DNA of 14,236 bases from a bacterium. Its GTDB lineage: Bacteria; ARS69. Of this stretch, positions 5,572 to 14,236 are shown piece by piece. Position numbers and translations under genes: made by a program. The notes under the pieces were generated by a model. The model did no database searches. It was given only the letters and a program-made list of their open reading frames with translations, and was not told where the DNA came from. The DNA lies in contig JALGZR010000107.1 in assembly GCA_025774805.1 (NCBI GenBank), forward strand, positions 1 through 14,236. Reading direction: 5' to 3'. Numbering within the stretch: position 1 is the stretch's first letter; every line of letters starts with the position of its first letter.

Positions 5572-8508
5572 ATGCCCGCCCGCTCGCGTTCCGTCTTGGC
5601 CGGTCTGATCCTCTCGGTCGCGATCCTCACTTTCGTTGCGCCGGCGTCCGCCACCCCCACGATCTCTCCCGACCTCGCCGCGGAAATGGAGCGCGCGACG
5701 ACGAGCGACCGGATCCCGGTCATGATCGTGATGCGGGAGCAGGCGAACCTGGACGTCCTCCTTCCCGTCGTTCGGAAGTTCGCGCCGGCCGAGCGCCGCG
5801 CCTTCGCCAGGGCCGAGCTCAAGAGCCGCGCGAGTGTCACTCAGAACCGCGTTCGCTCCTATCTCGCGACCGAGGAGGCGGCCGGCCGGGCCGCGAACGT
5901 GCGCTCTCTCTGGATCGCGAGCGGCGTGGTCGCCGAGATGACGCCCGCGGCGATCGAGGGACTGCTCGCGCTCTCCGAGATCCGCACGATCCTGTGGGAT
6001 CCGCCGATCCCGGACGAGGAGGCGAACGACCGGGGCGAGATGATCCGGGAGAACCGGACGGGGAGCCTCGCGAATCCCGTACCCGAGATCTGGCAGCTCG
6101 AGTCCGTCAACGCGCCCGACGTCTGGGCGCTGGGGTACGAGGGCGACGGCATCGTGGTGGCGGTCGAGGACAACGGCGTGGATCGAACCCACCCGGACAT
6201 CGCCACCCACATGTGGAACAACGAGGACGAGATCCCGGGGAACGGGACCGATGACGACTCGAACGGCTACGTGGACGACACGTGGGGCTGGAACTTCGCC
6301 GAGAACAACAACAACCCGATGCCGGCCGGCGACGACCACGGCACGAAGTGCGCCGGCATCGTGGCGGGAGACGGGACGGACGGGATCCGCACCGGGGTGG
6401 CGCCGAAGGCGCTCATCATGGCCTGCCGGGTCTCGAGCTGGGGCCAGAACATCCTGGGAATCCAGTACGCGATCGACAACGGCGCGCACGTGATCACCAT
6501 GAGCCGCTCCGAGAAATGGCGCTTCACCCCGAAGCCGGATTACGACTGGTGGCGGTCCATCACCGACGGGGAGCTCCTCACCGGCATCTTCCACGCCAAC
6601 TCGATCGGCAACGAGGGAGACAACCAGAACACGGACCCCGTCCCCTTCAACATCGCGGCGCCCGGCTGCTGTCCGACCCCGTGGAGGCACCCGGACCAGG
6701 TACAGGCGGGGGTGAGCGGCATCACGTCGGGGTGCGGAGCGATCGACTCGAACGACGTCATCGCGAACTACTCCTCGATCGGCCCGTTCGCCTGGGAGGA
6801 CATCCAGGTCCACTGGCCGGAGTACCCGCACGACATGCGCCCCGAGTACCAGGACTACCCGTGGTGGTGGGGGCTGCCGGGGCTCCTCAAGCCGGACGTC
6901 GTCGCACCGGGGCCAGGGACGACGTCCATCGCGATCGGCGGGGGGTACGGCAGCTTCGGCGGAACCTCGGCGGCGACACCCCACGTGGCGGGGGGAATGG
7001 CTCTCATTCTCTCGGCGAATCCGTTCCTTACGCCGGAAGAGATGGCGATGGTCCTCCAGACCACGGCGGTGGAGCTGGGATCGGCGGGCAAGGACACGCG
7101 CTACGGAGCCGGGAAGCTGGACTGTCTCGCCGCGGTCCAGCTCGCGCTGATCATGAACAACTTCGGATTCGTGCAGGGGACCGTCACGGACCAGGAGAAC
7201 GGGAACCCGATTCCGGACGTCGACGTCCAAGCGATGGGCGACACCTGGAACACGAAGACGGATACCGACGGCGACTACACTCTCGGGCTTCCCGAGGGCG
7301 ACTGGACGCTGCAATACACGAACTTCTTCTACGAGGACGGCTCGGCGGACGTCGAGATCACGGCACAGCAGACGATCGTGCAGGACATTGCGCTCACGCG
7401 AAAGGCCACGGGAACGGTGATGGGCCGTATCACGGATGCGGAGTCGTTCGACCCGATCGAGGGGGCGGAGATCGAGCTCCCGAACACCCCTCTTCCCACC
7501 GAGGTGTCGGATGCCCGGGGGAGGTACAGCCATACGGGGGTACCCGTCGGCAGCTACACCGTCGTCGCGAGCAAATTCGGCTACGAACCGGGGGGAGAGA
7601 GCGCGACGGTGACGTCCGGTGGCGGGGTGACCCAGATCAACTTCGACCTGTCCCCGGCGCTCCTCGCGCTGGACATGGAGACGGATCCCGGCTGGACTGC
7701 GGGGATTCCCGGTGACAACGCGACCACCGGCGTCTGGGTGCGCGTGGATCCCAACGGGACGGGCGCCCAGCCCGAGGACGACCACACACCGGACCCGGGC
7801 GTTCTGTGCTGGGTGACCGGTCAAGGGACACCGGGGGGCGCACTCGGTGAGAACGACGTGGACAACGGAAAGACCACGCTCCTGACGGGCGTGATCGATC
7901 TCTCGTCGGCGCCGAGCCCCGCGATCAGCTACTGGGCGTGGTACTCGAACGACCAGGGCACCTACCTCGACGACGAGTGGGTGGTCGAGATCACGAACGA
8001 CGGCGTGGAGTGGACGGAACTCCTCCGGATGGACGTGTCCACGAGCGGCTGGGAGTACTTCCAGCACCGCGTGGCGGAGTTCGTCACCCCGACCGCGAAC
8101 ATCCAGGTTCGGTTCGTCGCATCGGATGAAGGCTCCGGTTCCATCGTGGAGGCGGCGATCGACGACTTCCAGGTCTTCACGAACGTACCTGCCACGGATG
8201 TCACGCCCGTCCCGGGAAGGCCGGGCGCTCGGCTCGTGCTTCATCCGAACGCGCCGAACCCGTTTGCGTCCTCGACCTCGATTCGGTTCATGCTGCCGGC
8301 GACGGCGACGGTCGACCTGCGCATCTTCGATGTGGCCGGCCGCCTGATCCGGACGCTCGCGAGTGGGGAGCGGAGGGAGGCGGGCCTCCAGCAAATCCGC
8401 TGGGACGGCAGGGATGCGGGCGGCTCGCGGGTCGCCTCGGGCGTGTATTTCTACCGCGTGGATGCGCTCGACCAGAGCGTCACGGAGAGGGTGGTGCGGG
8501 TGAAGTAA
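5572..8508 (+). CDS. Secreted subtilisin-like (S8) serine protease with C-terminal sorting-type domain
   Basis: This 978-residue multidomain secreted protease begins with a signal peptide (residues 1-27, positive N-terminus, hydrophobic core, APASA before the likely cut). Residues 30-148 look like an inhibitory propeptide of the I9 type. The S8 catalytic domain spans about 170-530 with Asp200 (VEDNG), His256 (DDHGT), oxyanion Asn347 (SIGNEG) and nucleophile Ser466 (GGTSAATPH), so all key residues are intact. Two carboxypeptidase-regulatory-like beta-sandwiches follow at about 535-610 and 613-695. A MAM/jelly-roll-like domain is at about 700-872 (YWAWYSND, IDDFQVF). The C-terminus, 888-978, is a FlgD-type Ig-like domain (HPNAPNPFASSTSIRF, DVAGRLIRTL, WDGRDAGG, VASGVYFYRV). 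In related phyla such tails direct secretion or cell-surface attachment, often via type IX-like systems; whether that system exists here is not visible. It stands alone, followed by a terminator-like hairpin. The role is probably extracellular protein degradation. Confidence 0.95.
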   Translation: MPARSRSVLAGLILSVAILTFVAPASATPTISPDLAAEMERATTSDRIPVMIVMREQANLDVLLPVVRKFAPAERRAFARAELKSRASVTQNRVRSYLATEEAAGRAANVRSLWIASGVVAEMTPAAIEGLLALSEIRTILWDPPIPDEEANDRGEMIRENRTGSLANPVPEIWQLESVNAPDVWALGYEGDGIVVAVEDNGVDRTHPDIATHMWNNEDEIPGNGTDDDSNGYVDDTWGWNFAENNNNPMPAGDDHGTKCAGIVAGDGTDGIRTGVAPKALIMACRVSSWGQNILGIQYAIDNGAHVITMSRSEKWRFTPKPDYDWWRSITDGELLTGIFHANSIGNEGDNQNTDPVPFNIAAPGCCPTPWRHPDQVQAGVSGITSGCGAIDSNDVIANYSSIGPFAWEDIQVHWPEYPHDMRPEYQDYPWWWGLPGLLKPDVVAPGPGTTSIAIGGGYGSFGGTSAATPHVAGGMALILSANPFLTPEEMAMVLQTTAVELGSAGKDTRYGAGKLDCLAAVQLALIMNNFGFVQGTVTDQENGNPIPDVDVQAMGDTWNTKTDTDGDYTLGLPEGDWTLQYTNFFYEDGSADVEITAQQTIVQDIALTRKATGTVMGRITDAESFDPIEGAEIELPNTPLPTEVSDARGRYSHTGVPVGSYTVVASKFGYEPGGESATVTSGGGVTQINFDLSPALLALDMETDPGWTAGIPGDNATTGVWVRVDPNGTGAQPEDDHTPDPGVLCWVTGQGTPGGALGENDVDNGKTTLLTGVIDLSSAPSPAISYWAWYSNDQGTYLDDEWVVEITNDGVEWTELLRMDVSTSGWEYFQHRVAEFVTPTANIQVRFVASDEGSGSIVEAAIDDFQVFTNVPATDVTPVPGRPGARLVLHPNAPNPFASSTSIRFMLPATATVDLRIFDVAGRLIRTLASGERREAGLQQIRWDGRDAGGSRVASGVYFYRVDALDQSVTERVVRVK

Positions 8509-9039: not shown

Positions 9040-10602
9040 ATGACCCGCGAGACGCATTTCATCCGCAAGGCCGGTGTGACGCCGAGCGTGGCCGACACCC
9101 TGCCCGTGGATATCACCGACATCGTTCTCAAGCGGATCATCATCCTCTGCCTGATCTCCGCGGGTCTGACGGTGCTGGGTTCCGTGCTCTGCATCGGCTC
9201 CCTCCTGACCAAGGGAAGATTCATCGAGCTGGGCGGCTATCGCCCCGTGGAAGTCGTCAAGGATGCCACCATGGTCTTCGTATCCCTGGGCATCGCCTGG
9301 ACCGTGCACCGGCGCGCCTTCTCCCCCCGCGTCCTGACCGCGCTGGGCCTGGGCTACGGAGTGTTCGCGGCTCTCTACCACAGCGTCGGCGAGTGCTACG
9401 CCATGGCGGCCGACGAGTTCACGCCCATCGCCTACTTCTCCTTCACCCAGGCCTGGGTGGTGTTCTTCCCGGCCATCGTGCCCATCCGATCGCGGAGCGC
9501 GACCCTCATGATCCTGCTGGCCGCGGCCATGGCTCCGCTCAGCCGCGCCGTCGGCCAGGGAGCCGGCTGGATCGAGCTCCCCGAGGATTCCCTGGCCATC
9601 CTGATCATCCTCATGTCCTTTTCCGCGATCATGGGCCTGATCGTCTCGCACGTGGTCTACAAGCTGGGCAGGTCGGTCAAGGCGGCGCGTGAGATGGGCA
9701 GCTACACGCTCGAGGAGCACCTGGGCGGCGGCGGCATGGGCGAGGTCTGGCGGGCCAGCCATCGCATGCTGGCCCGGCCCGCGGCGGTCAAGCTCATCAA
9801 ACCCGAGATCCTCCGGGGCATGCAGCCCTTGGAGATCGAGAAGCTGAACCAGCGCTTCGAGCACGAGGTCCAGGCCACCGCCGCACTGCAGTCCCCGCAC
9901 ACCGTGGACATCTACGACTACGGTCTGGCCCAGGAGGGTGCCTTCTACTACGTGATGGAGCTGCTGGACGGCATCGACATGGAGACGCTGGTCGAGAGCT
10001 TCGGGCCGGTCGAGCCCGCGCGGGCGGTGCACTGCGTCATCCAGGCCTGTCATTCGCTGAACGAGGCGCACAAACGCCAGCTGATCCATCGCGACATCAA
10101 GCCGGCGAATCTGTTCGTCTGCCGCTACGGGGAGGATTTCGACTTCGTCAAGGTGCTCGACTTCGGACTGGTGAAGCAGGAGCGGGCCGCCGGTGAGACC
10201 GAGATGAAGCTCACCGCCGACGGCTCGGTGACCGGGACTCCCGCCTACATGTATCCCGAGGCGCTCCGGGGAGACGGCGTCATCGATCATCGCGCGGACA
10301 TCTACTCCCTGGGCTGCGTCGCCTACTGGCTGCTCACGGGGCAGCTCGTGTTCACCGCCTCGTCGCAGATGGCGATGCTGATGGAGCACGCCAACGCCCG
10401 GCCGGAGCCGCCTTCCCGCAGAACCGAGCTGGAGATCCCCCCCAAACTCGATGCCGCGGTGCTGGCCTGCTTGGAGAAGAACCCCGCGGATCGCCCCCAG
10501 GGCGCCGGCGCGCTGGCCGATCTGCTGAGGGGAATCGGCTTCGCGGAACCCTGGAATCAGGCGCGCGCGAGGAACTGGTGGCAGCTCCACCAGGCGGGAT
10601 GA
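9040..10602 (+). CDS. Membrane-anchored Ser/Thr protein kinase (Hanks type) with multi-spanning N-terminus
   Basis: This 520-residue protein is predicted to phosphorylate Ser/Thr on cytoplasmic targets. Residues 30-207 hold about six hydrophobic segments (near 31-55, 74-90, 99-118, 128-150, 154-170 and 185-207). The kinase domain occupies about 221-505: glycine loop GGGGMGEVW (229-237), invariant Lys251 (AAVKLI), helix-C Glu276 (RFEHEV), catalytic loop HRDIKPANL (His350, Asp352), DFG at 374-376, GTPAYMYPE in place of the usual APE (399-407) and DIYSLGCVAYWLLTG (420-434). All catalytic residues are present, so it should be active. The architecture is reversed from the common PknB type, in which the kinase is N-terminal and a sensor follows the membrane helix; here the chain ends shortly after the kinase domain. 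The ATG has AGGGAG nine nucleotides upstream. Its signal and targets are unknown. It precedes the BlaI/BlaR1-type pair but has a separate promoter. Confidence 0.93.
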   Translation: MTRETHFIRKAGVTPSVADTLPVDITDIVLKRIIILCLISAGLTVLGSVLCIGSLLTKGRFIELGGYRPVEVVKDATMVFVSLGIAWTVHRRAFSPRVLTALGLGYGVFAALYHSVGECYAMAADEFTPIAYFSFTQAWVVFFPAIVPIRSRSATLMILLAAAMAPLSRAVGQGAGWIELPEDSLAILIILMSFSAIMGLIVSHVVYKLGRSVKAAREMGSYTLEEHLGGGGMGEVWRASHRMLARPAAVKLIKPEILRGMQPLEIEKLNQRFEHEVQATAALQSPHTVDIYDYGLAQEGAFYYVMELLDGIDMETLVESFGPVEPARAVHCVIQACHSLNEAHKRQLIHRDIKPANLFVCRYGEDFDFVKVLDFGLVKQERAAGETEMKLTADGSVTGTPAYMYPEALRGDGVIDHRADIYSLGCVAYWLLTGQLVFTASSQMAMLMEHANARPEPPSRRTELEIPPKLDAAVLACLEKNPADRPQGAGALADLLRGIGFAEPWNQARARNWWQLHQAG

Positions 10603-10638
10603 TCCCCGTGGGGCGGCGAACACCGATCCCGTGCTCCC

Positions 10639-10667
10639 TTGACATCCCAGACAGTCCGTCTTAGATT
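10639..10667 (+). promoter_or_regulatory. Sigma-70-type promoter of the BlaI-BlaR1-like operon
   Basis: A perfect -35 TTGACA (10639-10644) is separated by exactly 17 bp from TAGATT (10662-10667), which matches the -10 consensus at four of six positions. It is the best promoter in the window and lies 60 bp before the repressor start. The -10 is embedded in the inverted repeat described separately. Confidence 0.7.
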
Positions 10668-10680
10668 GGGATCTCAGACA
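10644..10680. promoter_or_regulatory. Probable autoregulatory operator: three related half-sites over the promoter
   Basis: GTCTTAGAT (10658-10666) and ATCTCAGAC (10671-10679) form an inverted repeat with eight of nine positions matching and a TGGG spacer; the left arm overlaps the -10. A third copy, ATCCCAGACA (10644-10653), matches ATCTCAGACA (10671-10680) at nine of ten positions and lies between -35 and -10. AGAC (10649) and GTCT (10658) also form a short dyad. BlaI-family dimers classically repress their own promoters from such sites, so this is the expected target of the next gene. Confidence 0.55.
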
Positions 10681-10712
10681 AGCCGACTGACCGGGAGCCC
10701 CGTGGGCTTCCC

Positions 10713-10720
10713 GGAGGAGG
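10713..10720 (+). promoter_or_regulatory. Strong ribosome binding site that decides the repressor start
   Basis: GGAGGAGG ends directly against a GTG at 10721, leaving no spacer for that codon. The in-frame GTG at 10727 is six nucleotides away and is therefore the better start. Confidence 0.7.
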
Positions 10721-10726
10721 GTGCTC

Positions 10727-11122
10727 GTGGATCGTCAACGGATCGAGGTGCCGGACGCGGAGCTCGCCGTCCTCAAGGTCCTCTGGGACAAGCGGTTGGC
10801 CACCATCCGGGAGATCACCGACCGCCTCTATCCGGGCGGCGGCGTGTCGGAGTACGCGACCGTCCAGAAGCTCCTCGAGCGCCTCGAACAGCGCGGGTGC
10901 GTGGCCCGTCGAAGAGAGGGACGCGTCAACGTCTACACGCCGGCCCTCGAGAGAGAGGACCTGATTCGCCACCGCCTGCGGGACGCGGCCGACAAGCTGT
11001 GCGAGGGATCGCTCACGCCGCTCCTCACGGAGCTCGTCGGGGCGCGCGATCTCACCCCCGAGGAGATCCGGGTCCTCCGCGATCTGGTCGGCCGGCTCGA
11101 CGCCGGCCGAGCACGGGAATGA
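10727..11122 (+). CDS. BlaI/MecI/CopY-family transcriptional repressor
   Basis: This 131-residue (from GTG 10727) winged-helix DNA-binding protein is of the penicillinase-repressor family. The N-terminal helices contain ELAVLKVLWD (12-21) and the family's IREITDRL; the recognition helix is the characteristic YATVQKLLERLEQRG (43-57), followed by the wing CVARRREGRVNVYTP (58-72). The C-terminal helices (from about 75) would form the dimer interface and, in characterised members, contain the site cleaved on induction. Length is normal for the family. A longer GTG start at 10721 adds two residues but has no room for the ribosome site. It is followed after 8 bp by the BlaR1-type protease, the usual repressor/antirepressor pairing, and probably binds the half-sites in its own promoter. 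Because the partner lacks a penicillin sensor, beta-lactam resistance should not be assumed. Confidence 0.93.
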   Translation: MDRQRIEVPDAELAVLKVLWDKRLATIREITDRLYPGGGVSEYATVQKLLERLEQRGCVARRREGRVNVYTPALEREDLIRHRLRDAADKLCEGSLTPLLTELVGARDLTPEEIRVLRDLVGRLDAGRARE

Positions 11123-11130
11123 GGTGAGCC

Positions 11131-13026
11131 GTGGAGCGATTCGCCCAGATTCTCCTCGTCAACGCGGTCAGCGCGACCCTCCTGGCATTCCTGGTCGCGA
11201 TCGTCGGACGGCGGGTGAAGCTGCCCGCCCTCACGCATCTCCTCTGGCTGCTGGTTCTCGGGAGGTTCGTCGCCCCTCCGATTTTCGAGGTCGGGCTTCT
11301 CCCGGGAGAAGACAAGGTCGCCGAGCTTCTCTCCCGGTGGAGTGACGGGTCGGAGCTTGCGGCCGCGCCGGCAACGGACATCGGAGGGGGCGGCCCGGCT
11401 GAAACCGGCGACGCGTTCACGGGTCTCCCGGTGCCGGCCGCGCCCGCGCCATCCCCGGAGAGGGAGCCGGGAACGGCGCCCGCGAACGGGACCACGGCGG
11501 CGCAGACCGGCCTCCCGATTCCCACCCCGTCTCTCGCGGAAGCCGTCGTCTTCTTGGATCTCTCGGGCGCGGCCCTTCTTCTTCTTCTGGCCGGGTCTCG
11601 CGTCGTCCGGTTCCGTCGCTCTCTCGCGACGGCCGACTCGGCACCACCGGAGCTGCAGGAACGGGCCGACCGCCTCGCCGTCTCCCTCGGCCTGTCCCGC
11701 TCGCCCCGAATCCGTCTCGCGAAGGAACGGATACCGCCGCTGCTCTGGGCCGGCCCCGGTCGCACCGAGATCGTCCTGCCGGCACCGCTCCTGGCCGAGC
11801 TCGCCCCCGACGAAAGGGACGCACTTCTCACGCACGAGCTCGCCCACGTCCGGCGACGGGATCACTGGATTCGACCGTTCGAGTTGCTCGTCACTGCACT
11901 GTTCTGGTGGCACCCGGTCGCATGGTGGGCGCGACACAACCTGCGCATCGCCGAGGAGAAGTCCTGCGACTCCGTGGTGCTGGAATCGCTCCCCGGTCGG
12001 TCGCGCGCCTATGTCGAAGGTCTTTTGAAGACGCTGGAGTTCCTTTCCCGTCGGACCCGGCCCGTGCCCGGTCTGGCCACCGGCGCCGCCGACACCACCC
12101 ATCTCGAGGAGAGGCTGGTCATGATCATGAAGGAAACCGCACGCGGCCGGATTCCGCGGCCCGTGCGTCTGGCTCTGATGGGCGTCGCCCTCGGGACGGT
12201 CCTCGTGTTCCCGACCTGGATCCCGCATCACGGAGCCGTAGCCGAGGTGGACCCCTCTCTCGCCCTGCCCGGTCCGCCGGACAACCCGGGCTCGGCCGGC
12301 GTCGAGCCGGTCCCGTTCGCGTTGCCCGAGCCACCCGCCGTCCCGGCCGCGCTCGAGGATCGGGCCGCGCTCCCCGTTCCCGAGATTCCGGTCGACCCCT
12401 CGACTTGGGTCCCCACCCAGGAATGGCCCCCGACGCTGTCCTGGGCCTCCCCCGTGCCCGGGGCCCCCACCGCGCTGCTGGTTTCGCCGCGGGTCCCGAC
12501 GGCCACCGATGAGGACCCGCGGACCGTGGTCCCGGGCGGCCGGTCGATGTCCATCGAGGCGATGATCGAGCTGCGCCGCAGGGAGATCCTCCTCCAGAGG
12601 GAGCTCATCGAGCTCGAAGATCGCCGCCGCGAGATGAACTGGCGGATCCAGGAGCGGGAGATCGCCCTCGAGGTGCAGCGACGACAGGCGGAAATCGAGG
12701 CGCTGCGGGCCGCCGACCAGGCGGCCGAGGCCGAGCTCGTCGCGCACCGGCTCCAGCAGATGCAGCGGGAGTTCTCTCGTGGGCGGGAGCGTGCCCGAAT
12801 CGAGCAACAATTCGAGGAGAAGCGCCGGGAGATCGAGTTCGAGCTCCAGGACCTCGGGCTGCGCTACGAGGAGCTGAGGGCCCGGGGCGACGAGCTGGCA
12901 GCGCACGACCTCGAGATGGAGATCGAGGTGCTCCAGCAGACGCTGATGGAGCATCAGCTCGACGAGATGCGCGCGGAGATCGAGCAGAGATCGGCCGAGC
13001 TCGAGGAGATGCTCGCGGAGGAGTGA
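11131..13026 (+). CDS. BlaR1-type M56 membrane metalloprotease with C-terminal coiled coil in place of the sensor
   Basis: This 631-residue protein has the M56 core: membrane helices near 5-25, 33-51, 138-156 and 343-361, plus a hydrophobic stretch at 250-266. The zinc site is HELAH (235-239), with the likely third ligand Glu276 in EEKSCD (the family's E-x-x-C-D motif). In BlaR1/MecR1 this domain is activated by an extracellular penicillin-binding sensor after the last helix and leads to repressor cleavage. No such sensor (no SxxK-type fold) is seen. Instead residues 370-460 are rich in Pro, Ala and Val, and 470-631 are a continuous Glu/Arg/Gln-rich region with heptad-like hydrophobics (RREILLQRELIELEDRR, MEIEVLQQTLMEHQ) that should form a long extracytoplasmic coiled coil. 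The loop at 70-135 is also Pro/Ala/Gly-rich. It starts with GTG 8 bp after the repressor stop, with GAGGTGA overlapping that stop. It is probably the antirepressor of the preceding gene, responding to an unknown envelope signal. Confidence 0.88.
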   Translation: MERFAQILLVNAVSATLLAFLVAIVGRRVKLPALTHLLWLLVLGRFVAPPIFEVGLLPGEDKVAELLSRWSDGSELAAAPATDIGGGGPAETGDAFTGLPVPAAPAPSPEREPGTAPANGTTAAQTGLPIPTPSLAEAVVFLDLSGAALLLLLAGSRVVRFRRSLATADSAPPELQERADRLAVSLGLSRSPRIRLAKERIPPLLWAGPGRTEIVLPAPLLAELAPDERDALLTHELAHVRRRDHWIRPFELLVTALFWWHPVAWWARHNLRIAEEKSCDSVVLESLPGRSRAYVEGLLKTLEFLSRRTRPVPGLATGAADTTHLEERLVMIMKETARGRIPRPVRLALMGVALGTVLVFPTWIPHHGAVAEVDPSLALPGPPDNPGSAGVEPVPFALPEPPAVPAALEDRAALPVPEIPVDPSTWVPTQEWPPTLSWASPVPGAPTALLVSPRVPTATDEDPRTVVPGGRSMSIEAMIELRRREILLQRELIELEDRRREMNWRIQEREIALEVQRRQAEIEALRAADQAAEAELVAHRLQQMQREFSRGRERARIEQQFEEKRREIEFELQDLGLRYEELRARGDELAAHDLEMEIEVLQQTLMEHQLDEMRAEIEQRSAELEEMLAEE

Positions 13027-13141
13027 TCGAGACGCGGAGGGCGGAAAGGGGGTTGTTTCCCCGCTCCGGATCGCGCCGCACCCGCCGCGCGCGCTCCGCA
13101 TGATGCGCATGACGCGCTTGCCGGGGAGCGGGGGATCTTCC

Positions 13142-14236
13142 ATGATCGCCTTCCGTGAAGAGACCCCGCTCCTCCGCCGCGCTCTGGCTCCTTCTCGTGT
13201 GGGGAGCCTTCGTTCTCTCTTCGTTCTCTACGGTACGACCATCCCCTTCGACCTCGTCCCCGGCGGGGAGACGGTGGCGGAAGGATGGTCGAAAGCGCAC
13301 AAGACTCCCCGGATCGGCCCCGGCGGTGAGCGCCCGTCCCTCACCGACGCGGTCACGAACGTCCTGCTCTTCATCCCGTGGGGATTCCTTCTCGCCCTGC
13401 ACCGGACGGATCGGAGGGGGAGGCCCGGCGCCACCCTGCTTCTCTGCGGCGCGACGGCGCTTGCCCTCAGTCTCTCCGTCGAGACCCTTCAGCTCTTCTC
13501 GTCGACACGCACGACCTCCGCCACGGACCTGGTGAACAACGTGGCGGGGGGCGTGCTCGGCGGCCTCGCGGGTTGGATCGTCGGGCGGTGCGTCCGCACC
13601 GAGATGGGGCCGCGCCTGCGACGCGGTCTCGAGCGCGAGCCCCTGACCGTTCTCGCGCTCGCCGTGGCAATCGGGGTCCTCCTCTGGTCGGTGTCTCCGT
13701 TCGACCTGACGCTCGACGTGGACGACCTGAAGTCATCCATCAAGACCCTGCGTCCGGTTCCTTTCGGACCGCCCCTCCGGGGGGAGACCCCGCCGCTGCG
13801 ACCGGGAAAACAGGTCGCGACGCTCCTCGCGTGGGCGATGATCTGCGGGGTGATCGTCTCCGCGCTTCGGGCCAAGGGATGGCGAGGAGCGCGGCTCGCG
13901 GCGGCGAGCGTCGGCGCGGTGCTGCTCTTGGCGGTCGCGTCCGAAGGTGTGCAGCTCCTCGTGAGGGGGCGCGCCACCGACGCGACGACGATCCTCCTCG
14001 CGTTCGTCGGCGGCACCCTCGGGGCGGGGATCGCCGCGAGCGGGGAGCGCTCTCCACGATCGCTCGTGGCGCCGGCGCTCGCGATCTGGACGGGAGCGAT
14101 TCTGGCGGCAGGACTCGAGCCCTGGCACTTCAGGTGGCTCGGGTGGGAGGCCTTCCGGGAACACCACCTTCTCCCGTTCCTCCACTACTTCGAGAGAACC
14201 AACGTCTACGCGCTGGCGGACGCCTCCCTGCAGGTG
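13142..14236 (+). CDS. Tandem VanZ-like membrane protein, 3' end beyond window
   Basis: An open frame of 365 codons runs from ATG 13142 to the right edge without a stop. The frame contains the VanZ-like signature twice. Copy one (about 28-135) reads YGTTIPFDL, then TNVLLFIPWGFLLAL (72-86), SVETLQLF with Glu114, and TDLVNNVAGGVLGG. Copy two (about 180-300) reads SPFDLTLD, a run of hydrophobic helices, ASEGVQLLVRGRATDAT with Glu268, then FVGGTLGAG. The two glutamates are 154 residues apart. A further segment, EPWHFRWLGWEAF then HHLLPFLHYFERTNVYAL, extends to the edge. VanZ proteins are small membrane proteins, one of which gives low-level teicoplanin resistance; most have no known role. Start choice: GGGGGA lies six nucleotides before 13142. 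In-frame ATGs at 13100, 13103 and 13109 exist without a ribosome site. It follows the BlaR1-type gene by 115 bp on the same strand and may be co-transcribed. Confidence 0.82.
   Translation, partial: MIAFREETPLLRRALAPSRVGSLRSLFVLYGTTIPFDLVPGGETVAEGWSKAHKTPRIGPGGERPSLTDAVTNVLLFIPWGFLLALHRTDRRGRPGATLLLCGATALALSLSVETLQLFSSTRTTSATDLVNNVAGGVLGGLAGWIVGRCVRTEMGPRLRRGLEREPLTVLALAVAIGVLLWSVSPFDLTLDVDDLKSSIKTLRPVPFGPPLRGETPPLRPGKQVATLLAWAMICGVIVSALRAKGWRGARLAAASVGAVLLLAVASEGVQLLVRGRATDATTILLAFVGGTLGAGIAASGERSPRSLVAPALAIWTGAILAAGLEPWHFRWLGWEAFREHHLLPFLHYFERTNVYALADASLQV

Follow-up and report, generated by a model that had tools for sequence, protein, structure and literature searches.

A BlaI–M56 protease gene pair with a predicted helical bundle in place of the penicillin sensor

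Organization of the locus

In staphylococci, penicillin is sensed by a repressor and a protease of the BlaI–BlaR1 type. Here, we describe a related gene pair in a window of 14,236 nucleotides (the whole stretch of DNA analysed), which is contig C66 of a MAG of 5.1 Mb in 284 contigs; its phylum was represented by five genomes in our comparison. The two genes are co-directional, with 8 bases between them, and the locus has the following features.

10639–10667, + strand: sigma-70-like promoter (TTGACA at 10639–10644, 17-nt spacer, TAGATT at 10662–10667)
10648–10661, + strand: candidate operator box 1, CAGACAGTCCGTCT, occupying the promoter spacer
10675–10688, + strand: candidate operator box 2, CAGACAAGCCGACT, imperfect, just 3′ of the −10 element
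10727–11122, + strand: blaI-like repressor gene, 131 aa (PF03965, E 9.7e-25; the GTG start is used here, though translation could begin at 10721)
11131–13026, + strand: gene for an M56 (BlaR1-type) membrane metalloprotease with a predicted helical-bundle tail, 631 aa (PF05569, E 7.7e-29)
11302–11526, + strand: equivalent of extracytoplasmic loop EL1, about residues 58–132, Pro/Ala-rich (position by homology to BlaR1 EL1; PMC9834060)
11833–11970, + strand: catalytic core, HELAH 235–239, D244, E276 and D280 (from relatives and a profile alignment to BlaR1)
12226–12543, + strand: Pro-rich spacer, about residues 366–471 (about 106 residues), predicted to be disordered (pLDDT 34–45)
12544–13026, + strand: predicted three-helix tail, residues 472–631 (pLDDT 95, pTM 0.79), with homology beyond composition

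The repressor and the protease core

An earlier, sequence-only reading of this DNA had taken both the repressor and the M56 core to be intact, and the matches to PF03965 and PF05569, together with HELAH 235–239 and Glu276, confirm this. The repressor belongs to the BlaI/MecI (Penicillinase_R) family by its winged-helix PF03965 match (87.6 bits against a cut-off of 22.6), and phmmer matched it to the MecI structure 1okr (E 2.2e-9). It also scored 56.8 bits with the CopY/TcrY copper-repressor equivalog, which is under the cut-off of 121.95. In the alignment with MecI, whose scissile bond we take to be Asn101–Phe102 in the dimerisation domain, the scissile position is held by Glu102–Leu103; the hydrophobic P1′ residue is thus retained and P1 is different.

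Similarly, the profile match, the HExxH motif, the downstream ExxxD and the conserved Arg (R328) are all present in the M56 protein. H235, E236, H239, D244 and D280 are invariant across 26 relatives, and E276 is nearly so. In the alignment, H235, H239, D244, E276, D280, Y294 and R328 correspond to BlaR1 H201, H205, D210, E242, D246, Y261 and R294, all named as important in that protein (PMC9834060). A PDB search with a profile built from 16 relatives recovered S. aureus BlaR1 (E 1.7e-9), which was also the best PDB match of the AlphaFold2 model in Foldseek (8exq, E 1.6e-5; 8exr_A, TMt 0.64, rmsd 3.2). A PDB search with the single sequence gave zero matches, and the NCBIfam model blaR1_generic scored 52 bits, under its cut-off of 400. 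The window pair resembles S. aureus BlaI–BlaR1 and MecI–MecR1 in combining a repressor with an M56 protease whose core has HExxH, Asp, ExxxD, Tyr and Arg at matching positions. The loop equivalent to EL1 is predicted to be disordered, with pLDDT below 50 at residues 71–129.

BlaR1 of S. aureus autocleaves between Ser283 and Phe284, and its F284A form is autocleavage-deficient (PMC9834060). The profile alignment, which has gaps close by, sets Thr317–Gly318 opposite this bond. Because the P1′ Phe is aligned with Gly318, BlaR1-like autocleavage may be absent from the window protein, and its activation may differ from that in S. aureus.

The C-terminal tail

Unlike BlaR1 and MecR1 of S. aureus, the window protein lacks a penicillin-binding sensor and is predicted to carry a helical bundle instead. 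That the sensor half is missing had already been claimed, and the claim held: residues 362–631 matched no Pfam family at E 1, and a fold search with the tail only found no transpeptidase fold, the result that would have spoken against the claim. Composition and model also agree with the earlier description of a Pro-rich spacer (26 Pro, counted by eye) followed by about 160 Glu/Arg/Gln-rich residues. AlphaFold2 draws the tail as helices at residues 475–527, 531–584 and 588–630 (53, 54 and 43 residues, pLDDT about 95), and modelling it alone with nine relatives gave pLDDT 94.9 and pTM 0.79, values to be read knowing that the alignment is shallow (10–11 rows) and that AlphaFold2 may draw long hairpins from E/R-rich sequence.

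The sequence-only reading had called this region a coiled coil. Its helical nature agrees with the model, but heptad power exceeded that of shuffles in helix 2 only (10 of 500 as high) and not in helix 1 (184 of 500 as high), nor was heptad periodicity above shuffles for the whole tail. As the heptad signal is in helix 2 alone, we prefer a long helical bundle to a proven coiled coil, and, going by the model, ‘long three-helix bundle with conserved turns’ describes the tail better. Foldseek with the tail model gave no match below E 1, and the full-length alignment searched against the PDB retrieved mainly generic coiled coils, which we attribute to composition. In VIA-align, where a Z below about 13 may mean no more than an arrangement common to helical bundles, the tail resembled the ClpB/Hsp104 middle domain in its long antiparallel helices (Z 9.3, 144 aligned, rmsd 5.1) and the four-helix ligand-binding domain of the chemoreceptor MCP2201, which likewise is a periplasmic helical bundle serving as a sensor (Z 7.4). 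For both, Z is below the level trusted for helical bundles. ClpB/Hsp104 is a different protein in a different cell location, making the likeness likely convergent, and the weak match to MCP2201 (9% identity) is an analogy only.

Distribution of the tail

A scan of GTDB genomes yielded 80 loci. The nearest, all with helical tails, are L028 (sister genus in the same phylum; G004:C596), L029 (Latescibacterota), the Acidobacteriota loci L030, L031, L034, L039, L040 and L049, and L027, which was drawn with the Acidobacteriota group; the tailed loci L160 and L161 were found through the operator search. In every tailed relative, the blaI gene adjoins the M56 gene. Compared with shuffles that keep the hydrophobic pattern, similarity to the window tail was high for L029 (z 9.2), L028 (z 6.0) and L030 (z 4.5) and not significant for the more distant L031 and L049 (z 1.9 and 1.3). 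The first helix turn falls at tail residues 56–60 in seven relatives, and the G-turn motif G-x3-4-A-x2-[LVM] has 13 occurrences, compared with a mean of 2.2 in shuffles. Tails range from about 160 to 340 residues, and the spacer is short in L027, L028 and L029 and long in L034, L039, L040 and L049.

When the tree was built from the core alone, 12 tail-bearing proteins from the window's own phylum, Latescibacterota and Acidobacteriota form one group (91/94), and the tail label changes twice on this tree against a shuffled mean of 12.1; L037 has the tail and the operator, yet falls outside the tailed clade. The tail is thus kept in homologues, a point that the sequence-only reading had wished to see checked, and by these comparisons the tail-bearing M56 proteins are an old, small subfamily spanning several bacterial phyla. 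The same reading had spoken of a pair rewired to a new signal. Replacement of the sensor stands, but ‘rewired’ is too strong a word for an old and shared subfamily, and the new signal is still an inference.

Different tails occur on other M56 proteins. The source genome has four M56 genes, three of them adjoined by a blaI-like gene (the fourth, on C266, fell outside that neighbour scan), and its paralogues bear, by eye, a TonB_C-like tail (C95) and an NTF2-like tail (C149). WD40, HEAT and CarboxypepD_reg matches were found among the 26 M56 relatives. M56 proteins lacking a penicillin sensor are therefore common here and, judging from these differing tails, their C-terminal domain is evidently a module that can be exchanged.

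Several further variants were seen. L163 (G214, in the Acidobacteriota group) has an identical double operator and a BlaI–M56 pair whose tail is, by eye, STN plus TonB_C-like, which would make it an unchanged switch with another module. The M56 proteins of a sister group, mostly from planctomycetes (L033, L042, L044, L046, L051 and L059), have repeated short helical units in their tails, AxxxGxxxxxxAxxKL-like, unlike the window tail. His-rich stretches that possibly bind metal lie between TM4 and the tail in L037 and L028 (about 2270–2310 of L028) and are absent from the window protein.

Promoter and candidate double operator

The promoter at 10639 is the sole sigma-70-like site in 10560–13300 (mean in shuffles 0.0), and the two candidate operator boxes have the form AGAC-N5-GTCT. 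Box 1 sits inside the promoter spacer, a classic position for a repressor. The half-sites are GAC, unlike those of the classical BlaI/MecI box of S. aureus, which we take to be TAC. All group relatives with readable upstream DNA have TTGAC-N4-CAGAC-N5-GTCT with a second box 22–28 bases on, the distance from box 1 to TTGAC being identical throughout, and the double box stands 5′ of blaI in every readable relative. In the genome of L029, whose own blaI is gapped, the double operator precedes a different blaI fragment, located where two scaffolds are joined (L142). The 100-N joins in this Latescibacterota bin260 ‘chromosome’ (L029, 5648–5747; L142, 2122–2221) lie inside two blaI copies or halves, and gene order at both is unreliable.

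The strict promoter–box pattern, with one mismatch allowed, has one match in the source genome, and the double-box pattern also occurs there once (control 0). Ten of 12 genomes gave one double-box match each (control 0 in all); the exceptions were a genome with two matches at contig ends and that of L032, which has none and whose second box deviates. Among 396 Acidobacteriota genomes, 10 contain the strict pattern. Sites with a second box have blaI and M56 downstream, and single-box sites have neither a second box nor blaI/M56 nearby. Away from the operon, one-mismatch palindromes totalled 38 in the 12 genomes and 37 in the reversed control, which is no excess. By these counts, and with blaI lacking at the single-box sites, no further operator target is detectable in a search that weak or single-box targets would escape.

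The sequence-only reading had looked to a genome-wide search for other genes under the same operator; no second target emerged. As regards control of a beta-lactamase or PBP gene, there was no second double-operator promoter in the 284-contig MAG, where weaker sites would escape. Since no second double-box promoter is detectable, the pair looks self-regulated through the two predicted BlaI boxes, with no detectable outside regulon.

Neighbouring genes

It had been noted earlier that no beta-lactamase or PBP gene lies beside the pair, and the Pfam scan found neither family among the window genes scanned. Furthermore, no such target was found for the window pair, in which it differs from the S. 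aureus systems. The genes before blaI vary among relatives, as do those after the M56 gene, which are mostly on the opposite strand. A suggestion of PknB in the BlaR1 context (PMC9834060) prompted us to look at the Ser/Thr kinase gene immediately 5′ of blaI (9040–10602, + strand), which has a hydrophobic N-terminal region; it was rejected as a partner, as this neighbour is not conserved in the relatives examined.

A VanZ-like frame does follow the M56 gene. At 13155–13240 it is split over two frames at a short tandem duplication, in which TTCGTTCTC is repeated from 13209 onward, with ‘WLLLVWGAFVL’ in one frame and ‘FVLYGTTIPFD’ in another, and so it may be a broken gene, a slippage site or an assembly error. 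The sequence-only reading was right about the presence of this gene, but a connection with the system was not supported. One could imagine the pair and the VanZ-like gene as a single envelope-stress operon with VanZ as the useful product, given the shared strand, the gap of about 75–130 bp and the lack of a terminator-like site within 13026–13100. However, a neighbour that differs among relatives and a frame that looks disrupted at 13209 make this very improbable, and VanZ was rejected as a partner.

A possible mechanism

With a probability of about 0.6, we read this pair as a self-regulated switch of the BlaR1 type that perceives a non-penicillin envelope signal through a helical bundle in the periplasm. 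A control site at its own promoter only, and a bundle in place of the penicillin sensor, suggest that it probably reports something other than a beta-lactam. Bound to the two boxes at its own promoter, BlaI would hold expression of the operon at a low level. By homology, the M56 protein would be a four-helix membrane zinc protease with a cytoplasmic active site and a periplasmic tail; 13 matches to the outer-membrane marker Omp85 in the genome indicate a cell with an outer membrane. In the periplasm of such a diderm cell, the three-helix bundle would respond to a different envelope cue, with a protein partner or the state of the envelope as the likeliest candidates, upon which the activated protease would cut BlaI in its dimerisation domain and derepress the operon. 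As no other promoter has the double operator, the main output would be more protease and repressor. The sequence directly shows the two genes, the catalytic residues, the conserved tail and the unique operator; membrane topology, cutting of BlaI, the kind of signal and the significance of regulating only itself are inferences.

Rather than sensing, the tail might serve as a structural arm, either bringing protease molecules together into oligomers or anchoring the protease to peptidoglycan or to the outer membrane, with perception left to the extracytoplasmic loop, the transmembrane part or a separate partner. Tethers and dimerisers typically contain charged helices of a repetitive kind, the wide variation in tail length would suit such a role, and loop 58–132 is long and predicted to be disordered, its BlaR1 equivalent taking part in signalling (PMC9834060). 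We consider this possible but less probable than a sensor role, since helices 1 and 2 are near-constant in length and turn position across phyla and in M56 paralogues very different domains occupy this position, which is the pattern to be expected of an input module that can be exchanged. Indirect perception of beta-lactams or peptidoglycan fragments, either through a separate partner that binds penicillin or through fragments recognised by BlaI, has been proposed for the M. tuberculosis system and for B. licheniformis BlaI, but here it seems to us doubtful. The sensorless BlaR1 homologue of M. tuberculosis has been discussed in beta-lactam regulation (PMC9834060), and a peptidoglycan fragment is reported to be a trigger in B. 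licheniformis (PMC3305447), but the window and the double operator offer no beta-lactamase or PBP gene, and the neighbouring genes vary among relatives. An extension of the sensor reading, which we regard as rather unlikely, is a self-only BlaI–BlaR1 class across phyla, in which the M56 protease is both effector and sensor and helices of fixed length (about 55 residues, 80 Å) gauge periplasmic contact or spacing.

Relation to known systems

To our knowledge, almost all that is known of BlaR1-type receptors concerns the sensing of penicillin. Sensorless homologues are on record, so proteins of this kind are already known; for example, M. tuberculosis BlaI–BlaR (Rv1846c–Rv1845c) also includes an M56 homologue from which the penicillin sensor is missing (PMC9834060). 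It differs from the window pair in that its BlaI is reported to have other targets (PMC8265638, PMC12565901), and no helical tail is described for its BlaR in the literature found. Our literature search, which took in few subscription papers, turned up no published description of helical-tail M56 proteins, and neither the subfamily with the helical bundle nor its operator or apparent self-only regulation is described in what was found. With its different, ordered sensor region, a diagnostic operator and no visible outside regulon, the conserved subfamily provides a defined gene set for asking which other signals a protease–repressor switch can perceive, and whether further proteins are substrates of the protease. 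Furthermore, genes annotated as ‘BlaR1, beta-lactam sensor’ in these phyla should not be taken as a sign of beta-lactam resistance.

Other genes of the contig

Two further genes of the window were identified. A gene at 156–2786 (− strand) matches the selenium-dependent xanthine dehydrogenase family (TIGR03311, 940 bits against a cut-off of 830). Another, at 5572–8508 (+ strand), encodes a subtilase that has carboxypeptidase-regulatory-like domains and, at its C terminus, a FlgD_ig/Por_Secre_tail-like sorting domain, which suggests a type IX-like secretion route.
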